Below are positions 24,725 to 46,191 of a stretch of DNA of 64,000 nt, piece after piece. Each line of letters opens with the position of its first letter. Within the stretch, counting starts at the first letter, position 1. The DNA is from an uncultured Clostridia bacterium (GTDB taxonomy: Bacteria > Bacillota > Clostridia > Christensenellales > Aristaeellaceae), in assembly GCA_946414315.1 (NCBI GenBank), contig CAMKNZ010000004.1, positions 1 through 64,000 on the forward strand, in the 5' to 3' direction. A program made the position numbers and the translations under genes. Under the pieces are notes generated by a model, which saw only the letters and a program-made list of their open reading frames with translations, was not told the DNA's origin and did no database searches.

Positions 24725-25537
24725 TCAACGGATGTTTCCTTCTCCCTTGCGGGCTTTTTTGTCCGCATACATCTTCTCGTCCGCGTTCTGGAAGATCTCA
24801 TCCAGGTCATAATCCTCGCCGCCGAAGGCAAATCCGCAGGCGATCTCGCAGCGGATCCCGTCGTCCTGCCGGTTCAGTTCGGCAAGGCCTTCCTCCCATG
24901 TCTTCAGGATCCGCTCCGCCTCTTCCCGGTTCACATGGATAGCGACCACGATGAACTCGTCTCCGCCCACGCGGAAGGGGATGATGTTCCGGGCCTCGAT
25001 CTTCTTCAGGCTTTCGGCCGCCTTGAGGATCAGCCTGTCGCCTGCTTCATGTCCATAGACGTCGTTCATCTGTTTCAGGTTGTTGACGTCCATATTGAAG
25101 ACAGCGATGGTCTTCTGGTTCCGGAAAAGGGTCTTCTTCAGCTCCAGAAACCTGCTCTTGTTGTAAAGGCCAGTCAGCCCGTCATGATCCTTTTCGTTCT
25201 TCAGCGATTTTGAGTATTCGCCCATATCCCGGACCAGGTCCATATACAGGCTGGTATCCATCAGGTGATGGATCTGCCGCAGGTGCCCATCTTCCCTGAA
25301 GGTGGAGGAATAGACCACCCAGGTCTTGCCGCTGCCGTTATCCAGCAGGTCCCACATCTCCGCCCGCTGTCCGTAAGCCGGAGGCGGACAGGCCGCATTC
25401 CAGTTGGTCTTTCCCTGCCGGACGGAGGCCGCCTTGGCGTCCTCATACAGGACTTTTCCGTCCTCATCCGTGATCAGGATCCGTCCGATATCGTTCCTGA
25501 AGAACCGGAGGATCATCTCATCCAGGTCCATTGCCAT
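24725..25537 (-). CDS. Diguanylate cyclase (GGDEF) with N-terminal sensor region
   Basis: The 270-residue protein has an N-terminal region (about 1-100) resembling a PAS fold (ILITDEDGKVLYED, YSSTFREDG), a helical linker and a GGDEF domain beginning at DHDGLTGLYNKSRF. The active-site motif RVGGDEF is intact, so it should make c-di-GMP from two GTP. The inhibitory RxxD site is absent (RNII at that position). It has no membrane helix. Its ATG lies 1 nt after the stop of the ABC exporter gene, making it the last gene of the exporter operon, so c-di-GMP may report on export; that is inference. Confidence 0.88.
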   Translation of the reverse strand: MAMDLDEMILRFFRNDIGRILITDEDGKVLYEDAKAASVRQGKTNWNAACPPPAYGQRAEMWDLLDNGSGKTWVVYSSTFREDGHLRQIHHLMDTSLYMDLVRDMGEYSKSLKNEKDHDGLTGLYNKSRFLELKKTLFRNQKTIAVFNMDVNNLKQMNDVYGHEAGDRLILKAAESLKKIEARNIIPFRVGGDEFIVVAIHVNREEAERILKTWEEGLAELNRQDDGIRCEIACGFAFGGEDYDLDEIFQNADEKMYADKKARKGEGNIR

Positions 25538-25538
25538 C

Positions 25539-27734
25539 TTATTGTTCCCCTTCCGTATCCAACCGCTGCCGGGCGACCAGTTCCGCAAAATGTCCGCCCT
25601 TTTCGATCAGCTGATCATAGGTCCCTTCCTCGATGATCGCGCCGTCGTCCATGACCAGGATCCGGTCGCAGTTGCGGATGGTAGAGAGGCGGTGAGCGAT
25701 CACGATGCGGGTGCAGTTCAGCTTGTCCAGCGCGTCTGATACCTGCTTCTGGGTCTTGTTGTCCAGGGCGGAAGTTGCTTCGTCAAAGATCAGGATCTTC
25801 GGTTTGGGAGCGATAGCCCGGGCGATCATCAGGCGCTGTTTCTGGCCGCCGGAAATCCCACCCTGGCCTTCGGAGATGACAGTCTGCATGCCCATGGGCA
25901 TTTCACGGATATCCTGGGCGATCCCGGCAGTCTCCGCCGCTTCCCAGGCTTCCTCCAGGGTCAACTGGGGCACGGAGATCGTGATGTTGGAGAAGATATC
26001 GCCCTGGAACAGCTGGCCGTTCTGGATAACCACGCCGATATTCCGGCGCAGGGACCGGGGATCCAGGCTGTTCATATCCCGGCCGTCATAAAAGACAGAA
26101 CCTTTTTCCGGTTTTTCAAAGCCCAGCAGCAGGCGCACCAGCGTGGACTTTCCGCAGCCGGTACGGCCGACGATCGCGACGTATTCACCGGAGCGGATGT
26201 TCAGGCTCAGGTCATTCAGAATATACGGGGTGTTCTCGTCATACCGGAAGGTGACATGGCTCATCTCAATGTGACCACTCACACGGGATACGGTCTGTTT
26301 CTCCTCGGCCACTTCCGGTTCCGCCTGCAGGATCGGCTCCGCCATTTCCAGCACCGGCTTGATGGCCGCCACGGAGACCGCGATGCCCGTGAGGGCGGAA
26401 AACGCGCCTGACAGCCGCCCGAACGCGGCGCTGAACGCATAATACTGATTGACTGATACACCGGTCTGTACCGCCAGATAATACAGGACAACCGTTCCGG
26501 CAAGGGAGATGGCTGTAGTGATCAGCGCATTCAGTTTCACAAAGGCGGGCGGATTATACTCCAGCTGGGCGTTCCTCGCATACAGCCTTCCCCAGCGGGC
26601 AAATACCCGCTTTTCCGAACCGGAAAGACGAATTTTCTGGATTCCGTTCAGCACAGCATAGGTCATGCCGGTCTCCTCGGCGCTCAGCTTCATCTTTTTC
26701 CGGGAAATGCCGATCTGGACAAGGGAGGCTGCCACGCTGACCACCAGCGTAGACAGGATAATCAGGATGGACGGCCACACCAGCGCGGGGGCAAACTGGA
26801 AGATCTGCGTGATGTACAGCAGGGACATAAGGCTGCTCAGGCCGATGGAAAAGATATTGTTCAGGATCATATTGCACAGGGAACTGATGCTGTTCGCCCG
26901 GCTGGAGAGTTCACCGGAAGAGAACTTCCGGAAAAAACTGACGGGGAGGGACAGGATGCGAATCATCACCGACGCCTCCACCGCCTGGGAACTCCGGGTA
27001 TTGATCCTGTCCATCAGGAGCGTGCGGATCAGCTCGATCATCTTGCTCGCGAAAGCAGAACACAGCAGGAACACCACAACGCCAAGCATCAGGTTCATAT
27101 TCCGGCTTTGCAGGATCGGGCCGGTCACCAGGGCGTACGCCTTCGGCTCGATCATGCCGACAAGGGTAACCGCCAGCGTGACCAGCACAATCAGAAGCAG
27201 ATCGCCGTTGGGAATGCTTTTTTTCATGTACAGCAGCAGGTCCGGAATGCCCAGTTTCTTCATGGGCAGGGGTTTATAGAAGCACAGCGCGTCCCTGGAA
27301 AACAGCTTCGCGGTCTTCCGGGTCACGCGGGTCTTTTTGCCCGTGACCGGATCTTTATAGTAATAGCCGTAGATCTTCCCGGGAAGCAGCGCCACGGTGG
27401 TTCTGGTCTCTTTCATGCAGCCCAGCATCGGTCCGTAGGCGTCTTTCTGCCAGTCTTCCGTCAGTTCCACATCCCGGACCATCAAGCCGGAAGGACGCAT
27501 AGCATATTCCAGCTGTTTGGAGACGTCCGGGATGTTCTCCGGGATCTCCACGGGCTTCTCATGGTAGTATTTCAGAACTTCGTCGATGGCTTCCTTGGCA
27601 ATCAGGCGGCCGTCCTCCAGCTGTTCCGCGCTCCATTTGTCCATCACGACGCTGGCCATACGGAAAAAGGAGTCTTCCAGGATGTTCTGATCTGATTCCA
27701 TTCTTTGTTTGATCTGTTCGTTAAACCAGCCCAA
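25539..27734 (-). CDS. NHLM-type bacteriocin-export ABC transporter, ATP-binding protein (TTG start)
   Basis: The 731-residue protein matches the second ABC protein of NHLM (nitrile hydratase leader microcin) export systems. It has an N-terminal soluble domain of about 150 residues without a C39 peptidase site, a six-helix ABC membrane domain (about 170-450) and a nucleotide-binding domain (about 490-725) with GRTGCGKSTLVR, ISGGQKQRLMIARA and ILIFDEATSALD. It probably pairs with the peptidase-ABC gene 15 nt upstream. The start codon is TTG 27732-27734, with a strong AAAGGAGGT site 9 nt before it; the next in-frame ATG lies 11 codons in without such a site. Confidence 0.9.
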   Translation of the reverse strand: MGWFNEQIKQRMESDQNILEDSFFRMASVVMDKWSAEQLEDGRLIAKEAIDEVLKYYHEKPVEIPENIPDVSKQLEYAMRPSGLMVRDVELTEDWQKDAYGPMLGCMKETRTTVALLPGKIYGYYYKDPVTGKKTRVTRKTAKLFSRDALCFYKPLPMKKLGIPDLLLYMKKSIPNGDLLLIVLVTLAVTLVGMIEPKAYALVTGPILQSRNMNLMLGVVVFLLCSAFASKMIELIRTLLMDRINTRSSQAVEASVMIRILSLPVSFFRKFSSGELSSRANSISSLCNMILNNIFSIGLSSLMSLLYITQIFQFAPALVWPSILIILSTLVVSVAASLVQIGISRKKMKLSAEETGMTYAVLNGIQKIRLSGSEKRVFARWGRLYARNAQLEYNPPAFVKLNALITTAISLAGTVVLYYLAVQTGVSVNQYYAFSAAFGRLSGAFSALTGIAVSVAAIKPVLEMAEPILQAEPEVAEEKQTVSRVSGHIEMSHVTFRYDENTPYILNDLSLNIRSGEYVAIVGRTGCGKSTLVRLLLGFEKPEKGSVFYDGRDMNSLDPRSLRRNIGVVIQNGQLFQGDIFSNITISVPQLTLEEAWEAAETAGIAQDIREMPMGMQTVISEGQGGISGGQKQRLMIARAIAPKPKILIFDEATSALDNKTQKQVSDALDKLNCTRIVIAHRLSTIRNCDRILVMDDGAIIEEGTYDQLIEKGGHFAELVARQRLDTEGEQ

Positions 27735-27749
27735 AGCAGAAGACCTCCT

Positions 27750-29930
27750 TTACTCGTTAGTGACCAGCTCGTTATAGATACCGCCTTTTGCGTACAGCTC
27801 ATCGTGCGTACCGCGTTCCACGATATGCCCTTTTTCAAGCACGATGATCTCGTCGCAGTCGCGGATCGTGGACAGCCGGTGGGCGACCACGATACAGGTG
27901 ATGCCGCGGTCCTTGACAGCTTTCACCAGTTCATATTCGGTTTTGGCGTCCAGCGCGCTGGTCGCCTCATCCAGAATGACAATGGATGGATCCTGCGCCA
28001 GCACCCGGGCGATCTCCAGGCGCTGCCGCTGTCCGCCGGACAGGTCCCGGCCGTTTTCGATCAGCCTGCCCTGGTATCCCCCGGGCCGCTGAAGGATGTC
28101 ATCATGAATCTGCGCGTCGCGGGCCGCAAGGATCACTTCGAAATCCTCGATGCTTTCGTCCCACATACGGATGTTGTTGGCAATGGTATCCTCAAAGAGC
28201 ACGATTTCCTGATCGACCATGGCTACAGAACCGGTAAACACGCTCCGCGGGATCGTGTTCGCAGGCCTTCCGTCAAAGAGAATCTCTCCGGCCCAGGGCT
28301 GATAGAGCCCCGTGATCAGTTTGCTGACGGTGGATTTTCCGCAGCCGCTGGCGCCGACAATGGCAACCCGGCTGCCGGGTTTCAGGTGCATGGAGAAATC
28401 GGTGACCGTCGGCTCGCCGAGGCGGGAATAACCGAAGGTCACATGCTTCAGTTCCACCTCGCCCTTCAGTTTGGCAAAGTTCGTTTCCCCGCTGTCCGCG
28501 CCGTTCATGAGCGCCGGATCGTCCGGGTAGTTCATCACGTCCTCCACCCGTTCCATCTCCGTACGCATCTCCTGGATGGTCTGTCCTGCATCCACCAGCG
28601 TCATCGCCGGACCCATGAAGGCCGTCAGCAGGCCCTGGAAGGTGACGATCATACCCATGGTAAACTGTTTGTTCATCGCCAGGATAACACCCAGGAACAG
28701 GACCACATAGCCGCTGGCTGCACTGATGAATTCGGGGATCAGTCCGATCCGGGCGCTCAGGGTGTCAAACTTCACCTGCTGCGTGTTCACAGACGCCTGA
28801 TAGCCGCTCCACCGGCGGAAGAATCCGGCTTCCGCGCCGGCAGCGCGGATCGTTTCCGTCTGGCTGATACCGGCCATCGTCGCGGAGGCCAGCTTGCCCA
28901 TATCCCGCATCTGGACCCGGGTCAGGTTGACCCGCTTTTCCGCCAGGTAGCGTGCAACAAACAGGTTGATCGCCAGAGAAGCGACTCCGACCAGCGTCAG
29001 CAGGACGCTGTAACGGAGCATCACAACCAGGTAGAAGATCATCATGATCGTGTTCAGCGCCAGAGGCGCCACGGTCTGCACCAGCGTGCTCGCAATGGAG
29101 GCGTTCGTGCCCTGGCGCTGCATGATATCGCCGGTCATGCGCTGGGAGAAAAAGTCCATGGGCAGCCGCAGGATCTTCCACATGTAGCCGGCGTTGCCCT
29201 CAATGGCCATCTTGCCGTTGATCTTGAGGTTGTAGACGATCTGGGCCCATTGCACGATCAGCTGGAACACCGCCAGGCCGACCATCACCATCAGGAAGGG
29301 ATAGAGCCAGGAGGGCGCCTTGCCTGTCAGCAGGCGGTCAAAGAAGATCCGGGAAAGAACCGGATTGATGACGCCGAACAGATAGGTAATGATGGAGGTC
29401 AGCACCACAAAGACCACCGCCGGCGCCGCGCCCGTCAGGCGTTTGCGGGCAAATTCCAGCGTACTCCGGCGTTTTCCGGAGGGAACGAATCCCTCGCCGG
29501 GCTCAAAGGTCAGGACCAGTCCCGTGAAGGACTCGTCAAACCGCTCCATGGGAATCTGGACAATGCCACGGGCCGGATCGTTCAGGACCGCTTTGCCGTT
29601 CTTAAACCCGTCCAGGACCACAAAATGGTTGAATTCCCAGTGGATGATGCAGGGGAAAGTGCCGTTTTCCTTCAGTCCCTCCGGTTCCATGCGGTATCCG
29701 TGCACATTCAGCCCGTAATGCTGGCCCGCGAGAAACACGTTCTTCATATTGGATCCGTCCCGGCTGACGCCGCAGTCCAGCCGCACCTGTTCCAGCGGGA
29801 TCCATTTCTGATAATACGCCAGGATCATGGCGAGACAGGCCGCACCGCATTCCAGCGCTTCCATCTGCATGATCACCGGCACTTTCGCCACACCCGCCTT
29901 CACGGGAGCTTTCAGCGTTGTTTTACTCAT
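27750..29930 (-). CDS. NHLM-type peptidase-containing ABC exporter (C39 peptidase)
   Basis: The 726-residue protein combines an N-terminal C39 peptidase (about 15-140), a transmembrane domain (about 165-430) and an ATPase (about 485-726; GASGCGKSTVSK, LSGGQRQRLEIARV, IVILDEATSALD). The peptidase triad looks complete: Q22 as oxyanion residue, C28 in ECGAACL, H102 in NHFVVL and D118 in NDPARG. C39 domains cut leader peptides after a double-glycine-type motif while the ABC part exports the core. The obvious nearby substrate is the 62-residue peptide at 33210-33398. AAGGAG lies 8 nt before the ATG; the HlyD-like gene is 18 nt upstream. Confidence 0.93.
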   Translation of the reverse strand: MSKTTLKAPVKAGVAKVPVIMQMEALECGAACLAMILAYYQKWIPLEQVRLDCGVSRDGSNMKNVFLAGQHYGLNVHGYRMEPEGLKENGTFPCIIHWEFNHFVVLDGFKNGKAVLNDPARGIVQIPMERFDESFTGLVLTFEPGEGFVPSGKRRSTLEFARKRLTGAAPAVVFVVLTSIITYLFGVINPVLSRIFFDRLLTGKAPSWLYPFLMVMVGLAVFQLIVQWAQIVYNLKINGKMAIEGNAGYMWKILRLPMDFFSQRMTGDIMQRQGTNASIASTLVQTVAPLALNTIMMIFYLVVMLRYSVLLTLVGVASLAINLFVARYLAEKRVNLTRVQMRDMGKLASATMAGISQTETIRAAGAEAGFFRRWSGYQASVNTQQVKFDTLSARIGLIPEFISAASGYVVLFLGVILAMNKQFTMGMIVTFQGLLTAFMGPAMTLVDAGQTIQEMRTEMERVEDVMNYPDDPALMNGADSGETNFAKLKGEVELKHVTFGYSRLGEPTVTDFSMHLKPGSRVAIVGASGCGKSTVSKLITGLYQPWAGEILFDGRPANTIPRSVFTGSVAMVDQEIVLFEDTIANNIRMWDESIEDFEVILAARDAQIHDDILQRPGGYQGRLIENGRDLSGGQRQRLEIARVLAQDPSIVILDEATSALDAKTEYELVKAVKDRGITCIVVAHRLSTIRDCDEIIVLEKGHIVERGTHDELYAKGGIYNELVTNE

Positions 29931-29948
29931 TCATTATGCTCCTTGCGG

Positions 29949-30428
29949 TCAGTTCCAGAAGTAACTGATCGGCGTGGTGGATTCCAGGACCAGTTCCGCG
30001 TCAAACTCGCCGTCCGTCAGCGGATAGTTGATCTTGTCCATTTGAATCATGACCTGGACCTTGTCCTCTTCGGAAAAAACGGAAAGCCATTCGACGTGAC
30101 CTGTTCCGTTCCCGAACCGCACCTGCATCCCGGTCTTGACCGTGTCCATCTGATCGATCGGAATTTCGGTGTATATCAGCGTCGCGTCCTTTTCCTCCCC
30201 GGTGCCGCTCTGTTCCGCTGTCAGGTGATAATTCTCCACCGTCACCCTGATCGGCATCGTGTTCTCCATGGTGGTCCGGGAGGCATACACAATAAAGCCT
30301 GCCAGCAGCAGCACAACCGCAGCCAGGAGCATCCACAGCCGCGGGCTGGTCACCCGCATATAGTCGTGCAGCTGCTCCGGAGAAGAGATCCGCTCTATGC
30401 TTTTTTTGCGGAAAAGTCCGTTATCCAT
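29949..30428 (-). CDS. Short HlyD-like secretion protein of NHLM type
   Basis: The 159-residue protein begins with the NHLM secretion-protein signature (LFRKKSIERISSPEQLHDYM), a proline-containing RVTSPRLWM stretch and one membrane helix (about 31-50). A short extracytoplasmic beta-rich part follows. Typical HlyD-family adaptors are two to three times longer, with coiled-coil and lipoyl domains, all missing here. The frame is intact and ends with a normal stop, so it appears to be a minimal version rather than a recent truncation. In a Gram-positive cell it may only scaffold the exporter. GGAGG is 10 nt before the ATG. Confidence 0.8.
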   Translation of the reverse strand: MDNGLFRKKSIERISSPEQLHDYMRVTSPRLWMLLAAVVLLLAGFIVYASRTTMENTMPIRVTVENYHLTAEQSGTGEEKDATLIYTEIPIDQMDTVKTGMQVRFGNGTGHVEWLSVFSEEDKVQVMIQMDKINYPLTDGEFDAELVLESTTPISYFWN

Positions 30429-30466
30429 ATCTGTCTGTCCTCCTGCCGGTATGCCGGCTCCTGTGT

Positions 30467-32938
30467 TTACTGCAGTTTTTTCCGGATCGCCAGGATGTTC
30501 TCCCCGTTCTCGTAGCGGTACTGCACGTCGTCCATGGATTTCTTGACCATAAAGATGCCCAGGCCACCGATCTGGCGCTCCTCCGCGGGAAGCGTCACAT
30601 CCGGATCCGCCTTCGCCAGCGGGTCAAAGGGCGTCCCGCTGTCGTGGAACTCAATCCCGGTAGAGCCGTCCTCCACCGTCATCCGGATCTCAGCGCTGCC
30701 GGTCTCCTGCCCGTAGGCATAACTGGCAATGTTGACAAAGATCTCCTCCGCCGCGATCAGGATCTGGTTCACCGTCCTGACGGAAGCGCCTGCTTCTTCC
30801 AGGTTCTGCCCGATAAATCCGAGCACCTGTTCCAGATTCTGCACTTTCGCTTCCAGCTTCAGCGTTTTCACATTGCTCACCGCCTTTTCCGATCCGATAT
30901 AGGTAAAGTTCAGCATCGTGATGTCATCAAACTGGTCTTCCTTGCCGACAAAGGCGGCAAGATCCTCCAGCACGGAGGAAAGCCCTCCTTTGAGCGTGGC
31001 TTTCGCGGCCCGGTTCAGCGCGTTGATCATCCGCCCGGTACCGTACTGCTCCGTTTCGCTGTTGATCGCTTCCGGTACGCCGTCTGTGTAAACAAAGATC
31101 CGGTCGCCGGGATTCAGCTGCAGTTCATATTCCTTATACTTCATCCCGTCCATTGCGGCCAGGGCGAGCCCGTGCCTGTCCTTGATCAGTTCATATTCGC
31201 CGCCGGCGCGCATGACAGCCGGATACTCATGCCCGGCGTTGGCGCATATCACCTGCCCGGTCTCCAGGTCGACAACGCCCAGCCAGGCGGTGACGAACAT
31301 CTCCGCGTCATTCCCTTCGCAAAGCACGCTGTTCGCCTGGGCCAGCACCTCCGCCGGGCTCCGGCCGGATTCCGCCAGGGTCCGGATCGACGTCTTGGCC
31401 CGCATCATGAACAGCGCGGCCGGAATTCCCTTGCCGGAAACGTCCGCGATAACCAGCGCGATCCTGTTCTTATCCAGGAAGAAGAAATCGTAGAAGTCGC
31501 CGCCGACCTCCCGCGCGGGATGCATGGTGGCGTAAATCTCAAAATCGCTGCGGGGGAAGGCGAAATTCTTCGGCAGCGCGGAGTCCTGGATCGTCCGGGC
31601 GAGCTCCAGTTCCTGCTCGATTCGTTTTTCCGCCGCGGTGATGTATCCCTTCAGCGTGTCCACGGTCTGGTTGATATCGTCCGACAGGGAAGCGAATTCC
31701 GATGAGCTCCGGACGTCGACGACCTCATTCAGATCCCCGCCGGTGATCTTTGTCAGCGACGCGTTCACCATGCTCAGGTTGTTCACCACGATCAGCTGGA
31801 CCAGCTGGGAAATCAGGGTATAGACCACCGCAAACAGCATGATGTCCGCCAGCGCAGTCTCGTAGATCTGCGCGTTGCGGCTGGCGTAGATTTCCGCAGT
31901 CGGAAGCTGCACCAGCACCGACACGTCCCCTTCCAGTTTCTCCTTGCGGCAGAAGGATTCCGTTCCGAAGATCGTCGCGGTGAAGAATTCGTTTTCCGGC
32001 GCTTCCCGGAGCTGCTGTTTGTTTGTTTCGGTCATGACGGCGCTCACGTGGGTTCCGGTAATAACGATCGTATTGTTCCTGATCAGGTCATAGGCGCCGT
32101 CCTGCCCTACATGGAACACCTGGCGCGCTTCCTTCATGCCTGCCTGGTCTTTGGTATAGGTTTCCCTGATATCGGAAATCGTGTTGGTCAGGGTGTTCCG
32201 GGCATTCTGGACAGCGGCACTCGTCTGAAGCGCATAGCTGAAAACCAGGTTGGCGATGAGCAGAAAGGCCGTGACGATAAAAAGCCAGAACTGGAAACGG
32301 CGCGAAACAGGTTTCTCCTCCCTGCTGACGCGGCGGAACGGATTCTTCCACTCCCCGGTCAGAACCTGCAGCACGGCGGAACCGCCGGCCATGCCGAGCC
32401 CGGTAAACAGGATCATCGGAACGGCACAGATGCTTACGACATAGATCGCCATCGTCATGTCTTCCCGGTGGGTGATCAGGACCACATACATGTGGAACAC
32501 TTCCATGACCGCGCCGAGAATAAAGCCGAAGACCGCAGACGGTTTTTTATGCTTGAACAGCCATACCCGCAGGGAAGCAGCCAGGAAACCGGCCAGGCAG
32601 GTGGATACGCTGCAGGCGATGCGGGTATAGCTTCCGACATTCCAGTATGTGCCGGCAATATAGCGTTCAATTCCGCCGATCAGGCCGGCGATAATTCCTG
32701 AGGCGGGATCAAAGAACAGTCCGGACATCAGGGGGCCGAGGTCGCGGACGTTCAGCAGCATCTGGCTGTAATCCACCGCGAAATGCGTGGACAGTACGGA
32801 ACAGCCGCCGTAGATCAGGCCGATCAGCAGCTTGTGCCAGGCACGCATCTGCTTTCCGGACACCCAAAGCCAGATCAGGGCTGTCAGCAGCACGTACAGC
32901 AGCGTGATCCCGGACATCTTCAGTATCATCGTCAGCAT
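30467..32938 (-). CDS. Membrane sensor with SpoIIE-type PP2C phosphatase and GHKL anti-sigma domains
   Basis: The 823-residue protein has a LytS-like 5TM receptor domain (1-190; NVRDLGPLMSGLFFDPASG), a helix at about 214-236, an extracytoplasmic segment (237-365), another helix (366-388), a HAMP-like linker, a PP2C/SpoIIE phosphatase (about 466-680; GGDFYDFF, IADVSGKGI, YTDGVPEA, QFDDITML) and a C-terminal GHKL ATPase (about 695-823; EEIFVNIASYAYG, HDSGTPFDP, GGLGIFMVKK). Such phosphatases activate STAS anti-anti-sigma proteins, whereas GHKL kinases inactivate them; this chain carries both. It is the first gene of the exporter operon, with its own sigma-A-like promoter at 33025-33053. A STAS candidate partner lies at 51892-52191. 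Confidence 0.9.
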   Translation of the reverse strand: MLTMILKMSGITLLYVLLTALIWLWVSGKQMRAWHKLLIGLIYGGCSVLSTHFAVDYSQMLLNVRDLGPLMSGLFFDPASGIIAGLIGGIERYIAGTYWNVGSYTRIACSVSTCLAGFLAASLRVWLFKHKKPSAVFGFILGAVMEVFHMYVVLITHREDMTMAIYVVSICAVPMILFTGLGMAGGSAVLQVLTGEWKNPFRRVSREEKPVSRRFQFWLFIVTAFLLIANLVFSYALQTSAAVQNARNTLTNTISDIRETYTKDQAGMKEARQVFHVGQDGAYDLIRNNTIVITGTHVSAVMTETNKQQLREAPENEFFTATIFGTESFCRKEKLEGDVSVLVQLPTAEIYASRNAQIYETALADIMLFAVVYTLISQLVQLIVVNNLSMVNASLTKITGGDLNEVVDVRSSSEFASLSDDINQTVDTLKGYITAAEKRIEQELELARTIQDSALPKNFAFPRSDFEIYATMHPAREVGGDFYDFFFLDKNRIALVIADVSGKGIPAALFMMRAKTSIRTLAESGRSPAEVLAQANSVLCEGNDAEMFVTAWLGVVDLETGQVICANAGHEYPAVMRAGGEYELIKDRHGLALAAMDGMKYKEYELQLNPGDRIFVYTDGVPEAINSETEQYGTGRMINALNRAAKATLKGGLSSVLEDLAAFVGKEDQFDDITMLNFTYIGSEKAVSNVKTLKLEAKVQNLEQVLGFIGQNLEEAGASVRTVNQILIAAEEIFVNIASYAYGQETGSAEIRMTVEDGSTGIEFHDSGTPFDPLAKADPDVTLPAEERQIGGLGIFMVKKSMDDVQYRYENGENILAIRKKLQ

Positions 32939-33024
32939 CGGTGTTCCTCGTTTTCCTCTGTCTTTCGGGCTGTCGGAAATCCGCCCGGCTTCATCGTTCT
33001 CTTTTTTTCTTGCTTTGAAATATT

Positions 33025-33053
33025 ATTTTATCAGAAAATGCCGCCGCTTTCAA
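33025..33053 (-). promoter_or_regulatory. Sigma-A-like promoter of the phosphatase-exporter operon
   Basis: On the minus strand TTGAAA (33048-33053) and TAAAAT (33025-33030) are separated by 17 bp, about 86 nt upstream of ATG 32938. It lacks the shared CTGGACA element found on the divergent side, so the exporter operon and the peptide/sigma operon have different promoter types within one 271-bp divergent region. Confidence 0.65.
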
Positions 33054-33095
33054 CGTTTCCGCGGAAGCGGGAAGTTTTCAAAAAATCGTGCCCGG

Positions 33096-33128
33096 TACTG
33101 GACATTTACCGGGTAAAACCTGTAAAAT
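33096..33128 (+). promoter_or_regulatory. Shared CTGGACA promoter element (copy C), leader peptide/sigma operon
   Basis: The element reads TACTGGACATTTACCGGGTA, then AAACCTG and TAAAAT. TGGACA (33099-33104) and TAAAAT (33123-33128) are 18 bp apart and fit a -35/-10 pair; TG just before the -10 adds an extended -10. The stretch CTGGACATTTACCGG is almost identical to the elements at 40741-40758, 49281-49298 and 52264-52281. The second heptamer (CCGGGTA) is the least conserved of the four. It lies about 80 nt upstream of ATG 33210. Confidence 0.6.
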
Positions 33129-33209
33129 ATTTTTTGTCAGATTGACTGCCACCTTGCCGGGTGCATCCGTATAAACTGATGAAAGAATTCTGAAAGGAGG
33201 GTGACATCC

Positions 33210-33398
33210 ATGGAGGGTAAACTGAAAGCCCTGTTCGATTACCAGAAGTTTGAGGGGAATTCCACGCTTCAGTCGGTGATCGATTCCGTCCACTCCCGTT
33301 ATGCCGTGAAGGAGCTGAGCCTGGACGAAATGGAGTGGGTCGCCGCTGCGGGGATTCCCGAAACCAAACCTGAAGATAAAGACCATAAAGGCAACTGA
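33210..33398 (+). CDS. 62-aa peptide with double-glycine-like leader, candidate exporter substrate
   Basis: The 62-residue peptide has a hydrophilic, helical N-terminus (MEGKLKALFDYQKFEGN), then KELSLDEMEWVAAAG at 34-48, which matches the L-S-x-x-E-[LM]-x-x-V-x-x-x-G pattern cut by C39 peptidases, with AG in place of GG. Cleavage after G48 would release a 14-residue charged tail, IPETKPEDKDHKGN. The tail has no Cys and one Thr, so lanthionine-type modification is unlikely and a signal-peptide role is possible. AAAGGAGG lies about 9 nt before ATG 33210. The sigma-factor gene starts 5 nt after its stop. Alternatively it could be a small regulatory protein that is never exported. Confidence 0.75.
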   Translation: MEGKLKALFDYQKFEGNSTLQSVIDSVHSRYAVKELSLDEMEWVAAAGIPETKPEDKDHKGN

Positions 33399-33403
33399 CG
33401 AAA

Positions 33404-33886
33404 ATGCAGACCGCAGATCTTGACCGGATCTATACGGAATACAGCGGCAAGGTAATGGGATATATCCGCGCCCGGATACGCAGCAGCGCCGAAGCGGAAG
33501 ACCTCCACTCGGAGGTTTTTGAAAAAATCCTGAAGAAGATCGAAGAATTCGATCCGTCCAAGGCGTCCCTGAACACCTGGATCTTTACGATCACCCGGAA
33601 CACGGTGATCGACCACTTCCGCAGGTCCAAGCCCAGTGAGGAACTGGACGAGAACCTTTCGGACAACGTTGAGCTGGATGAAGACCTGCTCAACTCTGAA
33701 ACGCTCAGCGAACTGGCCGCGGCGCTCCGAAAGCTGCCGCAGCAGATGATGGACATCATCGTGCTGCGCTATTACGACGGCAAACCGCTGACAGAGATCG
33801 CAGAGATGATGAACCTGAGCTATGGTGCCGTAAAGCTCCGGCATCAGAACGCTGTCCTGATGCTCCGCCAGGCGCTGACCGACTGA
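33404..33886 (+). CDS. ECF-like sigma-70 family RNA polymerase sigma factor
   Basis: The 160-residue protein has a sigma-2 region (about 8-75; EAEDLHSEVFEKILKKI, LNTWIFTITRNTVIDHFRR) and a sigma-4 region (about 100-155; LRKLPQQMMDIIVLRYYDGK, LTEIAEMMNLSYGAVKLRH), with no sigma-1 or sigma-3, as in ECF sigma factors. It directs polymerase to a special promoter set. No conventional membrane anti-sigma gene follows; a terminator comes next. It sits 5 nt after the leader-like peptide gene with a weak ribosome site, so translation is probably coupled. GHKL and STAS proteins elsewhere in the window are candidate regulators. Confidence 0.92.
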   Translation: MQTADLDRIYTEYSGKVMGYIRARIRSSAEAEDLHSEVFEKILKKIEEFDPSKASLNTWIFTITRNTVIDHFRRSKPSEELDENLSDNVELDEDLLNSETLSELAAALRKLPQQMMDIIVLRYYDGKPLTEIAEMMNLSYGAVKLRHQNAVLMLRQALTD

Positions 33887-33892
33887 ACAGAA

Positions 33893-33931
33893 AAAAGCGC
33901 CTGCAGTTTCAATGAAACTGCAGGCGCTTTT
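33893..33931. terminator. Bidirectional rho-independent terminator
   Basis: A perfect 18-bp stem (AAAAGCGCCTGCAGTTTC and its complement) with a 3-base loop lies between the convergent sigma-factor and MATE-GHKL genes. A-rich and T-rich flanks on each side suit termination on both strands. Confidence 0.9.
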
Positions 33932-33932
33932 C

Positions 33933-35690
33933 TTATTCCTCTGCGGCCTCTTCCCTGCCGATCCGGATGTAGACATTGTTCAGGTTCAGCGCATAAGTAT
34001 AGCGTGCGTCCTGGGCGAAGGCCAGGACCAGGCGGATCCCCAGCGCGTCTTCTCCGTCCTTCGGAATATAACTGACCGGGTCGAAAGCACCGCAGTCATC
34101 CCGGAAGCGCAGCACCGTGTCTGCTTCCTTCTGCAAAAGCCGGACGGACAGGTCGTGATGTTTCTGATCCATGGCAAACCCGTGCTGAATGGTATTGGCC
34201 GCCATCTCCTCAATGCACAGCGCAATATGGTTGCTGACCTTCGCGTCCTGGCCGTGATCGCGGCAGAACTGCTCCGCTTTCTGCGCCGCGGCCGTCACGT
34301 CTTCCATGGATCGGATATCCATCTCCAGCAGGCAGTCCGGCATGACGCCGAAATCCTTTTTCAGCAGCAGGGCCGCACCGTCCTGCCAGGGAAGCTTCCG
34401 CGCCAGGATCATCACCAGCGCCGCGATGAACAGCAGGGTCAGGGTCTCTCCGGCAAGGAAATAGAGCCAGACGCCCGTCGTTCCCATGAACCGGCTGAAA
34501 ACAAAGCCTGCCAGCACGGGAAAGAACGTTCCTTCCAGCAGGGAGATCAGCACCGTCAGAAAAACCCGTTTTGTTCCCTGATATGCGTTTTTCAGCGCAT
34601 TGTTGATGCTGCAGGGAATCATGCCCGCGGCAAACAGGCGCAGGCCGAGGGCAGCCATGCGCTGGGTCTCTCCCGGTTCAGCGATGAAAAGGGAAACCAG
34701 CAGCGGCGCAGCCGCCACCAGGAAAGCTCCCATGGCGAGCCCGAGGATCACTCCGTACCGGCTCAGGCACCGGATCAGCGTCCGGAGGGCAGTACGGTCC
34801 TCCTCATGGAAAAAGATGCCGGACAGCGTCAGGGAAACGCCGCCGACGCCCGTGGTAATGCAGTTGGCAGCATTCCCCAGCGAGGTAATCACGGCAAAGG
34901 CCGCAAGCGCACTGCTGCCGCCCGTGGATTTAAGCACCCGGTTCAGCAGGAAGACCATGATCACGGAAGAAGCCATGTTGAACCCGGCGGGAACCCCGCC
35001 GCGGAACAGCTCCGCGATCTTCTTCAGGCTGACCCCGCGGAAAGAGAAGCGGAACACGCAGCGCTTCGACAGGAAATAGGTGCCGACGACCGCAATCGCG
35101 GCGTAGTAGCTGAGGGACGAGGCCAGACCCATACCGAACATTCCCCAGTGGAGTACCAGGCCGTTGAGCAGGTCCAGCGCGATATCCGTTACCGTCATGG
35201 TCAGCACGGCGACGATAAGCAGGTTCCCCTGCCCCGCCATCTGCAGGAAAGGAATCAGCACGAGCGCACCCATGCTTCCCGGTGCCCCGATGGAGAACCC
35301 GATCAGGTAGCCTTTGGTCATGTCATACAGCCCGCCGCTGGTTCCCGCACCCATCGCCCGGGCCAGGAACGGCGCAAACAGCACCACGGCCGCGGCGAAC
35401 AGCACCGAAACCGCCGTGCCGAACGCCACGGCGGACGAATAGCCCGCATTGGTCTCTTCCTTCGAACCGGAGCCCAGGGACTTTCCGCAGGCCACCTGGA
35501 CACCGGCTGCGAGCAGCGAACCAATGGCCCCGATAGACAGCAGCAGCGGATTGGCCAGCGTATAGGAAGCCATACCCTGTTCCTGGTAAAAGCGGCCGAT
35601 CATGATGTTGTCGACCAGCAGACACAGAGAAACTGCCAGCGCAGAAAAGATCTGCGCTGACAGCATCTGTTTCACGAGTTTCCGGATCAT
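33933..35690 (-). CDS. MATE-family transporter fused to a GHKL (RsbW-like) ATPase domain
   Basis: The 585-residue protein has a complete 12-helix MATE antiporter part (about 1-432; SLCLLVDNIMIGRF, GVPAGFNMASSVIM) and a cytoplasmic C-terminal GHKL domain (about 448-578). The ATPase motifs are intact: N-box LCIEEMAANTIQHGF with N499, G1 box RFRDDCGAFDPVS and G2-like GEDALGIRLV. MATE proteins expel cations, drugs or metabolites using Na+ or H+ gradients, while GHKL domains of this kind phosphorylate STAS proteins or hold sigma factors. I know of no standard role for the combination; it could couple transport to partner-switching control. GGAGG lies 7 nt before the ATG. Confidence 0.88.
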   Translation of the reverse strand: MIRKLVKQMLSAQIFSALAVSLCLLVDNIMIGRFYQEQGMASYTLANPLLLSIGAIGSLLAAGVQVACGKSLGSGSKEETNAGYSSAVAFGTAVSVLFAAAVVLFAPFLARAMGAGTSGGLYDMTKGYLIGFSIGAPGSMGALVLIPFLQMAGQGNLLIVAVLTMTVTDIALDLLNGLVLHWGMFGMGLASSLSYYAAIAVVGTYFLSKRCVFRFSFRGVSLKKIAELFRGGVPAGFNMASSVIMVFLLNRVLKSTGGSSALAAFAVITSLGNAANCITTGVGGVSLTLSGIFFHEEDRTALRTLIRCLSRYGVILGLAMGAFLVAAAPLLVSLFIAEPGETQRMAALGLRLFAAGMIPCSINNALKNAYQGTKRVFLTVLISLLEGTFFPVLAGFVFSRFMGTTGVWLYFLAGETLTLLFIAALVMILARKLPWQDGAALLLKKDFGVMPDCLLEMDIRSMEDVTAAAQKAEQFCRDHGQDAKVSNHIALCIEEMAANTIQHGFAMDQKHHDLSVRLLQKEADTVLRFRDDCGAFDPVSYIPKDGEDALGIRLVLAFAQDARYTYALNLNNVYIRIGREEAAEE

Positions 35691-35722: not shown

Positions 35723-36799
35723 TTACTGTGCGGGCGTATAGAACCGTTCCACGGAAACCATTTCACAGTTCACGTTGAATTTGACTTCCACATTATTCGT
35801 GGCAAAGTCGGGGCTCAGGTTCTCGTCAGCCAGCATGGCCTTGAACTCATCGACAGTGTAGGTGACCGGCTCTTCCAGCGGATCGCCGTTCTCTTTGTCG
35901 ATATGGTCGATGATCGTCAGGTTGTCCGGGATCTCCACCGTCAGTTCGGCAAACTGCTCAATATGTTCGATCTCGTACATATAGATATGGTATTCTTCAT
36001 CTTTCTTCCGCAGCTCGATATCGTCGTTGATCAGGATGACGCCTTCCTCGGACTTGTCGATTGATACGATCTCTTCCTGGAGCTGGCCGTCGATCAGCGT
36101 ATCGCCGATATCCAGCTGTTCCACCTGCGCAGCAGGCAGCGGAATGGGCCGCATCGCAACAGCGGTCAGCGTATTGGTCTCGGGATTGTAATCGCTCAGA
36201 TTGGTGACAAATGTGAGGCCTGCGACCGCCTGCGCCCCGGTCACCCCGGCGTCAGCGGGGATGAAGTCCAGGTTCGTCAGGAAACTGACGCAGGTAGCAA
36301 TCTGCTCCGCGTTCAGGTTCCTGTCCCCTTCCTGGGCGGGCAGGAGCACGAATTCCACGCAGTATCCCCTGAAGATGGAGAAGAAAACAATATAATCCAT
36401 GTCTTCCGTATCATGCTTGGCAACCAGCACCCGGGTACCGTAACCGGTTTCACCGTAGGTAATCTCCACATCCGGATCGGGATCGATGAAAGTCTGCTCC
36501 AGCAGGGCCAGGGCTTCATCATCCATGTCGTTCAGCCGTTCCACGTCGGCATACTGCTCGTCAAAGGCGATGGACAGCTGCATAGCGGGCTTCGCCGGAT
36601 CTTCCGACGAGATCAGGGCAACGTACTGTTCCGGCGTGACAGTCAGGGGCGTAATCTTATAACCTTCCGGCAGCGCGCTCTGAAGCCGGAACGCGCCGTT
36701 AATGCTCACGGTGCCGAGGGTCACTTTGTCCTCCGCCATCGCGGATACCGCGCAAAGCAGCATCGCAAGGCCCAGGATAATCGCAATGATTTTTTTCAT
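35723..36799 (-). CDS. Secreted protein of unknown function, 358 aa
   Basis: The protein has a clear Sec signal peptide (MKKIIAIILGLAMLLCAVSA, likely cut after AMA). The mature part is acidic; it has a region about 30-200 with YGETGYGTRVLVAKHDTED and a C-terminal half with several short beta-rich stretches. I recognise no domain. It is the last of four same-strand secreted-protein genes with 30-40 nt gaps, probably one operon from the promoter at 40370-40398. Envelope or extracellular location is expected; the function is unknown. Confidence 0.75.
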   Translation of the reverse strand: MKKIIAIILGLAMLLCAVSAMAEDKVTLGTVSINGAFRLQSALPEGYKITPLTVTPEQYVALISSEDPAKPAMQLSIAFDEQYADVERLNDMDDEALALLEQTFIDPDPDVEITYGETGYGTRVLVAKHDTEDMDYIVFFSIFRGYCVEFVLLPAQEGDRNLNAEQIATCVSFLTNLDFIPADAGVTGAQAVAGLTFVTNLSDYNPETNTLTAVAMRPIPLPAAQVEQLDIGDTLIDGQLQEEIVSIDKSEEGVILINDDIELRKKDEEYHIYMYEIEHIEQFAELTVEIPDNLTIIDHIDKENGDPLEEPVTYTVDEFKAMLADENLSPDFATNNVEVKFNVNCEMVSVERFYTPAQ

Positions 36800-39345: not shown

Positions 39346-40290
39346 TCAGCCGTCTCCCTGGCCTGCGTCTGTCTCCGTGATATCTTCACCGGTAATGGAC
39401 AGCGTTCCGGATGGCACGAAGCCGCGGATCGCCTCGCCGTTGAACGTTGTTTCAATGTAATCCCAGGCGCCGGAATTGTACATCGTGGTCAGATATGTAA
39501 CCCGGGTGCCAGCCGGCAGCTGCATCAGCGCGTTGCCTGTCTGCGCCGGATCATCCGTCAGGGCCGTGGAAGATATGACCTCCACCGAGCTGCGGTCCCA
39601 GCTCAGGATCTCCAGCGCCGGTTTCTTCCCCTTGATCTTTGAGATCTCGATATAGCCAACCCGATACTGACCGGCCTGGTTGGCTTCATAAAGCATCAGC
39701 ATCCAGCCCTGATCCTGGCCCAGCGCGTAAACGGGGCCGTTTGTGCTGACCGTAGCTTTACCATTGTTCGCCCGGTATGCCGCAGTCGACGGGGCGGTAT
39801 ATACGGCGTATTTCTGATTCGATTGCAGATCCACATAATCAAATCCGCGGGGCCTGTTCACCACTTCCGCAGGCGGCGTCGGCATTCCCTTCCCATTGGG
39901 ATTGTACCATTTCTGCGCCCGCATTTCCCTGCGGACAGCCTTGATCAGATCCACATTGTCGTTTTCAATCTTGGAACACTGAGAATAGCTGGTATGATGG
40001 TTCTGGCTGTTTTCGTCCGCATTGGGTTTGTACCAGGGCATCCTGGTGAACCAGTTGTAGCAGCGGCTGCCGGTTTCAAACTTGTAACCATGCCGTGCAT
40101 AGATTTCATTGAATGCATAAAGCAGCGTGTCATACTGGTACCCATTCCACAATTCATCCCAGGTCAGCGCACGCGTGTTGCTGTCCGGAATGATGTACAT
40201 GGAATCAGCTTTGGCCCCGGCCGGTACGAGCGCCGCCGCACAGGGCAGCAGGATCGCCAGCGCAAGCAGCAATGCAAACAGTTTTTTCAT
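39346..40290 (-). CDS. Secreted YARHG-domain protein with SH3-like C-terminus
   Basis: The 314-residue protein has a signal peptide (cut near AKADS), then a YARHG domain (about 40-130; YAFNEIYARHGYKFETG, WYKPN). A C-terminal part contains two SH3-like stretches (about 165-305) ending in RGFVPSGTLSITGED. YARHG domains are extracellular and probably bind peptidoglycan or related polymers. It is the first gene of the secreted-protein operon, with AGGAGGAG before the ATG. A promoter with an exact TATAAT lies at 40370-40398. Confidence 0.85.
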   Translation of the reverse strand: MKKLFALLLALAILLPCAAALVPAGAKADSMYIIPDSNTRALTWDELWNGYQYDTLLYAFNEIYARHGYKFETGSRCYNWFTRMPWYKPNADENSQNHHTSYSQCSKIENDNVDLIKAVRREMRAQKWYNPNGKGMPTPPAEVVNRPRGFDYVDLQSNQKYAVYTAPSTAAYRANNGKATVSTNGPVYALGQDQGWMLMLYEANQAGQYRVGYIEISKIKGKKPALEILSWDRSSVEVISSTALTDDPAQTGNALMQLPAGTRVTYLTTMYNSGAWDYIETTFNGEAIRGFVPSGTLSITGEDITETDAGQGDG

Positions 40291-40369: not shown

Positions 40370-40398
40370 ATTATACCACAGGGTCAGCTGTCGGGCAA
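40370..40398 (-). promoter_or_regulatory. Promoter of the secreted-protein operon
   Basis: On the minus strand TTGCCC (40393-40398) and TATAAT (40370-40375) are 17 bp apart. The -35 element lies inside the end of the 77-aa gene at 40384, so this operon can be transcribed independently of that gene. The small CCCGC/GCGGG hairpin just downstream has no T tract. Confidence 0.55.
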
Positions 40399-40617
40399 TT
40401 CGGGATCGCTGAAGCCGTCCAGCGTTCCGTTCTTCTCAATCCATACGTATTTATGCCAATCCTTCGACGACAGGAACAGCCTGGCTGCCACGTAAGGATA
40501 TCTCCGGCTGTCCGGGCTTTTCATAATCAGCCGGAAACGCTCCTCACCGACGCGTTCCCTGAGGAAAGATACGGCTTCTTTCGTATGTCTTCCCGGCTTG
40601 TATGTGTCCCTTTCCAT
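40384..40617 (-). CDS. Small hypothetical protein, 77 aa
   Basis: I do not recognise the family. The protein starts MERDTYKPGRHTKEAVSFLRER, is charged throughout and contains YPYVAARLFLSSKDWHKYVW before an acidic tail. It has no signal peptide, membrane helix or Cys. AAAGG and GGGA precede the ATG. Its notable property is its promoter: the shared CTGGACA element at 40727-40758 lies 110-140 nt upstream in the correct orientation, placing it in the same putative regulon as the sigma-factor operon. Confidence 0.6.
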   Translation of the reverse strand: MERDTYKPGRHTKEAVSFLRERVGEERFRLIMKSPDSRRYPYVAARLFLSSKDWHKYVWIEKNGTLDGFSDPELPDS

Positions 40618-40726
40618 TCCCGCGGTTCCTTTCCTACGGCGTTCTCAGGCCCCTGTTAAGGGTCTGCACAGCTTGATACGCACAAAAAAGCATATCTGGC
40701 AGTTCTTTTCTGAAATCTTTACTGAT

Positions 40727-45249: not shown

Positions 45250-45396
45250 CCCCTGACTGTACATTTCGGCGATCCGTGCCGCAATTACGGCACTTTCAGG
45301 ACAGTACTGCCACTCGGTGCCGCCGCTGCGTATCAACAGACGGGAGCGCCGTACGGTGTCCCGACCAGTCAGTAAAAGAAGAAAGGAAGTAATCGT

Positions 45397-46191
45397 ATGA
45401 AAAAAATTGTAAGTTTGATCCTTGTCCTCGCGCTGGCGCTTTCGCTGGTATGCGCGGCCCGCGCGGACGAAGTGCCGCAGCCGGAAGGCGGGAAGAAGTT
45501 TGAAACCGGCTGGGCGATCTTCAACACAACCATCCGGATCGTCTATGAAGAGGAAGGCTACCGGGTCTTCATCCGGAATACGGATCCTTCGGAGCAGAAG
45601 GTCACCGAATGGGAATACAGCTGCTATTACGTCGAGGCCGAGGACGTCCTCAAGTCCGTCTCCTCCTCGAAGCACAGCTATACCATTGACCCGGAGACCG
45701 GCGACAGCAAGGGTGACAAGACTGAATATGAAGACCTGGACGATGAGAATACCGTCACCGTTTTCCGGATCACCGAAGACGGTTTCCTGAACTGGGAAGA
45801 CGGCCGCGGCCAGGACGGTACTGACTCCGATTTCTCAAAGATCGGTGATTTCGAAGGCGTCTGGCGCAGCGATGACAACTACGTCTGGGCCGAGTTCGAA
45901 TGGAATGATTCCGAAGAGGATTACGGCTATTATGTGTACCTCCACAGGGGCTTTGACGACGTCTATGCCGAGTTCACCGCACAGGGCCTGTACAACCCGG
46001 AAACCGGCAAACTGACAGTCAAAACCATCGTTCCGGTGGCCACCAACACCCTGAAGGACGGCGCTTATGAAACGAAGTACGACGAGGATGAATACGAACT
46101 GGTCTTCTCCGAACTGGGCGGCGGAAAGATCCTGTTCGAGGCTGAAAACGGTGTGGAACTGACCTACGACATCATGGGTTCCGCCGGCTGA
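45397..46191 (+). CDS. Secreted protein of unknown function, 264 aa
   Basis: The protein has a signal peptide (MKKIVSLILVLALALSLVCA, cut near ARADE). The mature part is strongly acidic with many Asp, Glu and Tyr residues and alternating beta-type patterns (YVWAEFEWNDSEEDYGYYVYL, YDEDEYELVFSELGGGKILFE). No known domain is recognised. AAAGGAAG lies about 8 nt before the ATG. It is divergent from the ABC exporter genes (237-bp gap) and ends at a terminator. A calcium-binding or carbohydrate-contacting role cannot be judged from sequence. Confidence 0.75.
   Translation: MKKIVSLILVLALALSLVCAARADEVPQPEGGKKFETGWAIFNTTIRIVYEEEGYRVFIRNTDPSEQKVTEWEYSCYYVEAEDVLKSVSSSKHSYTIDPETGDSKGDKTEYEDLDDENTVTVFRITEDGFLNWEDGRGQDGTDSDFSKIGDFEGVWRSDDNYVWAEFEWNDSEEDYGYYVYLHRGFDDVYAEFTAQGLYNPETGKLTVKTIVPVATNTLKDGAYETKYDEDEYELVFSELGGGKILFEAENGVELTYDIMGSAG

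Follow-up and report, generated by a model that had tools for sequence, protein, structure and literature searches.

A sigma factor with an Ala-Ala leader-like partner and an NHLM-type exporter: a probable peptide-secretion regulon in an uncultured Clostridia bacterium

FlgM is an export-gated anti-sigma factor that is coupled to flagellar type III export and to the sigma factor FliA, and ComX is a name associated with the streptococcal Com/Blp/Rtg circuits. According to the relevant part of PMC7018657, these circuits combine C39 exporters, several co-regulated unmodified peptides with double-glycine (GG) leaders and a regulatory switch, made up of a pheromone and its own regulators. In the case of microbisporicin, the pertinent section of PMC4973701 describes an extracytoplasmic function (ECF) sigma factor, MibX, by which the peptide-antibiotic cluster is controlled, and its anti-sigma factor MibW, which are co-transcribed, take part in feed-forward control and, in the case of MibW, act at the membrane. 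The export systems of the NHLM/NHLP type are defined by the families TIGR03794, TIGR03796 and TIGR03797 (Haft et al. 2010, PMC2887384), and the word "sigma" is absent from the main text of that article. Here we analyse a stretch of 64,000 nucleotides from an uncultured Clostridia bacterium (assembly GCA_946414315.1, contig CAMKNZ010000004.1, positions 1 to 64,000; hereafter the window), in which a 62-residue leader-like peptide (PEP) and an ECF-type sigma factor (SIG) are encoded divergently to an operon for an NHLM-type ATP-binding cassette (ABC) exporter.

A peptide-secretion regulon probably has both its control pair and its exporter encoded in the window, a reading to which a probability of about 0.72 can be given. 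SIG would switch on its own PEP-SIG operon through the predicted promoter CTGCCA-N15/16-CGTATMAA, and would also activate scattered genes, whose products are GG-leader peptides, small membrane proteins and proteins that are secreted. The exporter (C39-ABC, ABC and a short HlyD) would cut the leaders and export the GG peptides, here probably unmodified, and PEP, made together with SIG, would sense or gate export as a co-regulator of SIG and not as cargo.

The exporter is of a known kind. The C39-ABC protein reaches 915.9 bits against TIGR03796 (cut-off 853.3) and the second ABC protein 734.5 bits against TIGR03797 (cut-off 709.4), which assigns them to the NHLM peptidase/permease/ATPase and permease/ATPase families, respectively. 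The HlyD-like protein matches TIGR03794 at positions 1-34 only, with 21.3 bits (cut-off 156.2), and is not assigned to the adaptor family; the NHLM matches proposed in a preliminary description of this DNA, for both ABC proteins and for the start of HlyD, are borne out. As in the NHLM/NHLP systems of PMC2887384, so far as this source covers them, GG or Nif11-type cargo occurs in relatives, and a Treponema locus (L305) has the whole trio; unlike them, HlyD is reduced here to its anchor, no LanC, YcaO or SPASM enzyme lies beside the exporter, and a dedicated sigma factor with an Ala-Ala (AA) leader partner is present. Com/Blp/Rtg, as outlined in PMC7018657, resemble the locus in their C39 exporters and in GG peptides that are unmodified and co-regulated, here putatively so, but the switch here would be a sigma factor and a putatively co-transcribed AA-leader protein instead of a pheromone and dedicated regulators, and no kinase/response-regulator pair was detected among the eight proteins scanned at 24725-35690, the rest of the genome not having been searched for one. 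MibX/MibW, on the account in PMC4973701, share an ECF sigma factor that controls peptide genes, here putatively, and has a paired gene alongside, but PEP is a small leader mimic without a membrane domain, and the putative regulon is scattered, with no lantibiotic cluster. No description of the PEP-SIG pair or its promoter was recognised in the full-text literature, judged by titles and abstract openings, with preprints and most subscription journals outside the search. The sigma factor with an AA-leader partner and a peptide regulon exposed by a promoter looks new.

PEP and SIG constitute a near-obligate pair. In a sample of 150 genomes of the family, with SIG homologues counted at E<=1e-25, PEP was found in 37 genomes, which discards the idea of an isolated curiosity of the window, and SIG in 35 (36 places). 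Comparison of coordinates locates PEP directly upstream at 34 of the 36 SIG places; the other two, in G031 and the second SIG of G076, belong to the more divergent copies, with identities of 42% and 36%, and three genomes with PEP (G004, G006, G125) give no SIG match. The adjacency of the genes and their frequent overlaps support co-transcription, as predicted from gene order. In the window, the PEP start (33210) is preceded by AGGAGG, a strong ribosome-binding site, and SIG begins 5 nt downstream of PEP; the families found in SIG (PF04542 with PF04545/PF08281, no region 3 family being listed) are those of an ECF factor.

The pair extends beyond the family. Across the order, PEP occurs in 11 of 396 genomes, three of them outside the family, and a named collection yielded 88 relatives, of which 80 were kept; they come from Clostridia of the rumen and gut, from Lachnospiraceae (isolates among them), Oscillospiraceae and Candidatus Ruminococcus equi, and from seven spirochaete records. 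Cultured commensals with the pair include Sporofaciens musculi (L322) and Petralouisia muris (L328). A same-strand SIG gene is found at a distance of at most 700 bp from PEP in 69 of the 80 loci, mostly downstream and sometimes upstream, and three of the remaining 11 have just 44-237 bp of contig downstream. The occurrence of PEP in spirochaetes suggests transfer between phyla; no match to PEP was found on plasmids or phages at E 0.01. The spirochaete records are titled Treponema (L305, L306, L311, L313, L319, L330) or Spirochaetaceae (L318), SIG adjoins PEP in six of the seven (L311 stops at a contig edge), and several also have exporter genes. When 895 neighbouring proteins from 93 loci were clustered (duplicates kept), the 25 largest clusters among those listed included, besides SIG and PEP, exporter ABC proteins (39 loci), HlyD (22), a VanZ-like membrane protein (12), STAS-like proteins (12), PP2C (11), a 118-aa cluster (10) and HATPase (8), with at most seven loci for the remainder; the two locus sets of this survey share entries, and its 124 PEP calls do not serve as a rate. 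No membrane anti-sigma gene generally recurs among these 25 clusters. In one locus (L080:5712-8262), a protein of the VanZ-like cluster and a 482-aa protein are located between SIG and the exporter.

Upstream of PEP, CTGCCA and CGTAT boxes separated by 15-16 bases are present in 25 of 43 regions, and orphan PEP genes, with no SIG, also carry this promoter. The pattern CTGCCA-N14-18-CGTATMAA has 14 places in the genome to which the window belongs (own genome) and none when reversed as a control. Three strict sites lie in the window (Table 1), with position weight matrix (PWM) scores of 29.6, 28.3 and 33.1, compared with a best match of 11.6 in three shuffles; two weaker matches, one on the minus strand at 36089 (score 19.6) and one on the plus strand at 25531 (score 15.9), fall inside or across genes. 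With a spacer of 15 or 16, the motif is found in 41 of the 150 family genomes, up to a maximum of 32 places (G100), and its distribution follows that of PEP: 182 places in the 37 PEP-containing genomes (29 with at least one) versus 16 in the 113 genomes lacking PEP (12 with at least one; Fisher 1.7e-14), the reversed pattern giving 10 places in all 150. Ten Lachnospiraceae, Oscillospiraceae and Ruminococcus genomes contain the family pattern (spacer 14-17) at 18 places in eight genomes (control 4), and spirochaetes have a different upstream box, their own pattern giving 24 places in seven genomes (control 1), including the six of seven PEP promoters from which it was derived. From this distribution we infer that SIG recognises CTGCCA-N15/16-CGTATMAA, and the conserved two-box sequence upstream of PEP-SIG itself would point, on sequence alone, to autoregulation.

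In the own genome, the predicted promoter precedes PEP-SIG, a second PEP, and secreted, membrane and ABC proteins, as well as GG-type peptides of 57, 82 and 71 aa at 80 nt or less (the 57-aa leader ends in SG) and, at a distance of 302 nt downstream, a 47-aa GG peptide; only 13 of the 14 places have a gene near them. A LysM domain (PF01476, E 1.4e-10) was identified in the 82-aa peptide, after which come two peptides that combine a GG leader with a GxxxG-rich core. In relatives, the promoter stands before GG-LysM peptides, Nif11 leaders (TIGR03798, 57.5 bits in L096), other GG peptides and families of proteins with signal peptides. The 109 distinct sites collected from fetched loci, many of which were chosen for PEP and thus bias its share, and which include chance sites of genomes without PEP, precede PEP (21), a GG peptide (19), a protein with an N terminus of the signal or transmembrane (TM) type (31), another product (13) or no open reading frame (ORF; 25). 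GG peptides account for 19 of the 63 non-PEP ORFs in family loci, versus 218 of 5000 control ORFs (p 1.4e-11), and outside the family for 16 of 25, versus 196 of 5000, two of those scored as "other" there (L371, L373) showing GG by eye. Taking into account that the promoter precedes GG peptides (bacteriocin-like, LysM-bearing and Nif11-type) and secreted proteins, SIG probably controls the cargo of the exporter. The pair and its promoter offer a handle on secreted peptides encoded far from exporters, which cluster-based mining would be likely to miss. On its own, the promoter pattern retrieves genes for bacteriocin-like, LysM-bearing and Nif11-type peptides from gut bacteria belonging to two phyla. 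Several loci (L165:1944-2192, L195, L214, L221, L226, L229, L111) encode small proteins, 77-88 aa long, with a GG leader and a LysM-like core; LysM is Pfam-confirmed for the L165 protein and judged by eye for the rest, and these proteins are candidate wall-binding cargo for a bacteriocin-type exporter.

The connection with the exporter is given by genome content. The exporter is found in 58 of the 150 family genomes, and at E<=1e-150 in 33 of the 37 with PEP versus 25 of the 113 without it (Fisher 2.7e-13), and thus the co-occurrence anticipated in the preliminary description is borne out. The clearest physical link is the Treponema locus L305, where PEP-SIG heads an operon with a full-length HlyD, ABC1 and ABC2, and an outer-membrane efflux gene lies divergently alongside; in nearly all family loci examined it is the short HlyD-like gene that is upstream of ABC1. 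The exporter operon as a direct target of SIG was discarded, no promoter being found before that of the window.

PEP is composed of three parts, with mean pairwise identities of 53% (residues 1-33), 54% (leader-like residues 34-48) and 15% (tail, residues 49-62). When A46-A47 are set at -2/-1, L36, E40, M41 and V44 fall at -12, -8, -7 and -4, the positions described for C39 substrates in the relevant parts of PMC7018657 and PMC6363468. PEP therefore has the hydrophobic residues at -4, -7 and -12 and the acidic residue at -8 of a substrate of peptidase-containing ABC transporters (PCAT), and lacks the Gly-Gly (or Gly-Ala, Gly-Ser) at -2/-1: 97 of the 105 distinct predicted PEP proteins (family and named relatives), that of the window included, have AA. 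Among these 97, L is found at -12 in 89, E or D at -8 in 91 and V, I or L at -4 in 95. The register was imposed by a regular expression, and AA is independently invariant in an alignment of 35 of the 43 PEP genes (omitting L119, L121, L124, L130, L131, L133, L136 and L137). Eight sequences are outside the register: L130 (a miscalled start), L137, which has a true GG, L273, and the Lachnospiraceae proteins L316, L320, L323, L325 and L327, with true GG or AG; L136 has AAKG. L323 has a short tail, and the other four Lachnospiraceae proteins join the PEP domain to a longer cargo, cysteine-rich in three of them. PEP matches no NCBIfam family, and no Pfam family above cut-off, and its profile finds among solved structures just a chance-level ribosomal match (E 0.91).

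Because AA replaces GG and the tail is unconserved, a role as a regulator linked to export, possibly as an anti-sigma factor gated by it, is more likely for PEP than one as a pheromone. Tentatively, and with a confidence well below even, it can be proposed that the N-terminal part of PEP would hold SIG in the cytoplasm while its AA leader, a cleavage-resistant mimic, would dock uncut on the peptidase, so that free exporter capacity, or competition from true GG cargo, would determine the release of SIG according to the occupancy of the exporter. Should PEP bind SIG, and should the exporter remove or titrate it, this would be analogous to FlgM-FliA, with an ABC exporter instead of flagellar type III export. 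In that case, the synthesis of secreted peptides would be matched to exporter occupancy, in an ABC-exporter counterpart of FlgM distributed from Clostridia to spirochaetes, and gating of SIG through the exporter would be a new means of sensing secretion capacity.

Several observations weigh against a regulon organised in this way. Four of the 37 genomes with PEP have no exporter at E<=1e-150, and its presence in 25 of the 113 genomes without PEP indicates that it also works without PEP-SIG. A SIG-type promoter was found upstream of just one of 47 family exporter operons (L077, which has PEP-SIG at its head), so that the exporter is generally outside the regulon and the link with its cargo is one of genome content. 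The strict boxes are absent from 18 of the 43 PEP upstream regions, and no strict site occurs in 8 of the 37 PEP-containing genomes; gene and GG calls come from our own scripts and a crude regular expression. The proteins that join the PEP domain to GG or AG and a longer cargo indicate that this N-terminal domain is compatible with export, which weakens, without excluding, the anti-sigma proposal, and the fold prediction of PEP is poor (pLDDT 61, pTM 0.30). Finally, the 31 of 109 sites that precede signal or TM-type proteins make a broader envelope regulon possible.

This last point leads to the alternative that SIG responds to envelope stress in general and controls many surface genes, those of PEP and the GG peptides being only some of them and PEP a passively exported protein. 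In its favour, those 31 sites include several similar secreted proteins of ~184 aa in G100, and LysM cargo would bind the wall. The near-obligate pairing across phyla, the strong GG enrichment also seen in spirochaetes and Lachnospiraceae/Oscillospiraceae, and the lack of a generally recurring membrane anti-sigma gene among the largest PEP-SIG neighbour clusters nevertheless make it rather unlikely. The similar secreted proteins (181-189 aa, SH3-like by eye), each behind a predicted SIG promoter, were observed in L199, L200, L202, L204, L205, L207 and L230, many in G100 and one in G099.

It was also considered that PEP could be a pheromone precursor, whose 14-15-residue tail would be released by cleavage at AA/G, leave the cell and raise SIG activity through a surface receptor that senses it, perhaps the SpoIIE sensor. 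The C39 leader positions that PEP matches apart from GG, the hypervariable tails, which suit strain-specific signals, and the 5TM-LYT sensor divergent to PEP in the window and in its nearest relative locus (L252) are consistent with this; however, the scissile position is occupied by AA in most sequences, GG being described as needed both to bind and to cleave the substrates of other transporters of this kind (PMC7018657), tails are poorly conserved, a SpoIIE gene is missing from the surroundings of many PEP-SIG loci and orphan PEP copies have the same promoter, so that this alternative is improbable. Thus, from the proposal in the preliminary description that an unmodified signalling peptide is exported, the linkage of PEP, SIG and exporter is retained, most PEP-containing relatives lacking LanC and YcaO, and the promoter points to the many GG peptides behind it, instead of the single 14-residue tail, as cargo.

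Enzymes for ribosomally synthesised and post-translationally modified peptides (RiPPs) accompany the exporter in some relatives only. As had been indicated for the window, its contig has no LanC-like, YcaO or SPASM match, other RiPP enzyme types not having been searched one by one. The own genome has no LanC or YcaO and a single SPASM match, which lies on a different contig; its 2.24-Mb assembly, in 54 contigs, is 60%-complete, and absences elsewhere in it are thus weak evidence. Among the 37 PEP-containing genomes, LanC occurs in one and YcaO in three, and SPASM in all, within 10 kb of an exporter in five (G009, G042, G055, G076, G103); YcaO lies ~7 kb from the exporter in G042, and a SPASM match ~13 kb from PEP in G132. 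The same-genus genomes G026 and G132 (97-98% complete) have no LanC or YcaO, and the contig of their exporter is free of SPASM matches for 50 kb around it. In Lachnospiraceae loci of the L322 type, the genes for a radical SAM/SPASM enzyme and for a Nif11-like precursor, which scores below the curated cut-off, lie between the exporter and PEP-SIG, and therefore the lack of modification enzymes is not a family-wide property; these loci and the enzyme-poor genomes indicate that PEP-SIG can sit with both modified and unmodified cargo, that of the own genome being probably unmodified. That the window is an ordinary NHLM RiPP export locus, with its precursor and modifying enzyme encoded at another place of the genome or in the 40% that the assembly lacks, would suit the two NHLM models passed and the SPASM, YcaO and Nif11 occurrences just listed, but is very doubtful given the enzyme counts in the own and same-genus genomes and the plain-looking GG peptides behind the predicted SIG promoter. 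One own-family locus (L096:1250-5765, from G120, in which no PEP was found) encodes, next to its exporter, a radical SAM enzyme along with precursors of the Nif11 type.

Table 1. Positions of the genes and predicted promoters of the window
Feature	Position	Strand	Remarks
Predicted SIG promoter, CTGCCA-N16-CGTATAAA, 5' of PEP-SIG	33146..33175	+	PWM score 29.6
PEP, 62-aa leader-like peptide, Ala-Ala at Gly-Gly position (residues 46-47)	33210..33398	+	
SIG, ECF-type sigma factor (regions 2 and 4)	33404..33886	+	Sigma70_r2, Sigma70_r4
5TM-5TMR_LYT + SpoIIE + HATPase_c_2 (GHKL) sensor, first gene of the operon	30467..32938	-	
Short HlyD-like protein, 159 aa	29949..30428	-	N-terminal anchor region of TIGR03794 only
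C39 peptidase-ABC exporter (NHLM_micro_ABC1)	27750..29930	-	TIGR03796; Peptidase_C39
Second ABC exporter subunit (NHLM_micro_ABC2)	25539..27734	-	TIGR03797
GGDEF protein, last gene of the operon; probably not a conserved part	24725..25537	-	GGDEF domain
Second predicted SIG promoter	40673..40702	-	PWM score 28.3
77-aa ORF 3' of second predicted SIG promoter	40384..40617	-	
YARHG-domain protein, next after 77-aa ORF	39346-40290		
Third predicted SIG promoter	45307..45336	+	PWM score 33.1
264-aa protein 3' of third predicted promoter	45397..46191	+	Signal-peptide-like N terminus (by eye); no Pfam family

All seven genes first reported for the locus are at the coordinates assigned to them, with the five of the minus-strand operon (SpoIIE/GHKL, short HlyD, C39-ABC, ABC and GGDEF) separated by 38, 18, 15 and 1 nt (the GGDEF start being taken as 25537) and PEP and SIG divergent. 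The tie of the phosphatase and the cyclase to the exporter fared unequally. PP2C or HATPase genes are found near 20 of 47 exporters versus 4 of 29 background loci, a modest link for the SpoIIE/HATPase protein; a STAS-PP2C-HATPase module recurs near exporters and beside the Treponema L305 system, its form in the window being the 5TM-LYT/PP2C/HATPase fusion. GGDEF was rejected as a part of the system: its N-terminal portion is found within four genes of none of 63 other exporters, any GGDEF domain is near two of the 63, and L252, the closest relative locus, lacks the gene. Convergent to SIG, at 33933-35690, the window encodes a MATE transporter fused to an HATPase_c_2 domain, and the same fusion is located near PEP-SIG or the exporter in L252, L254, L267, L285, L289 and L073.

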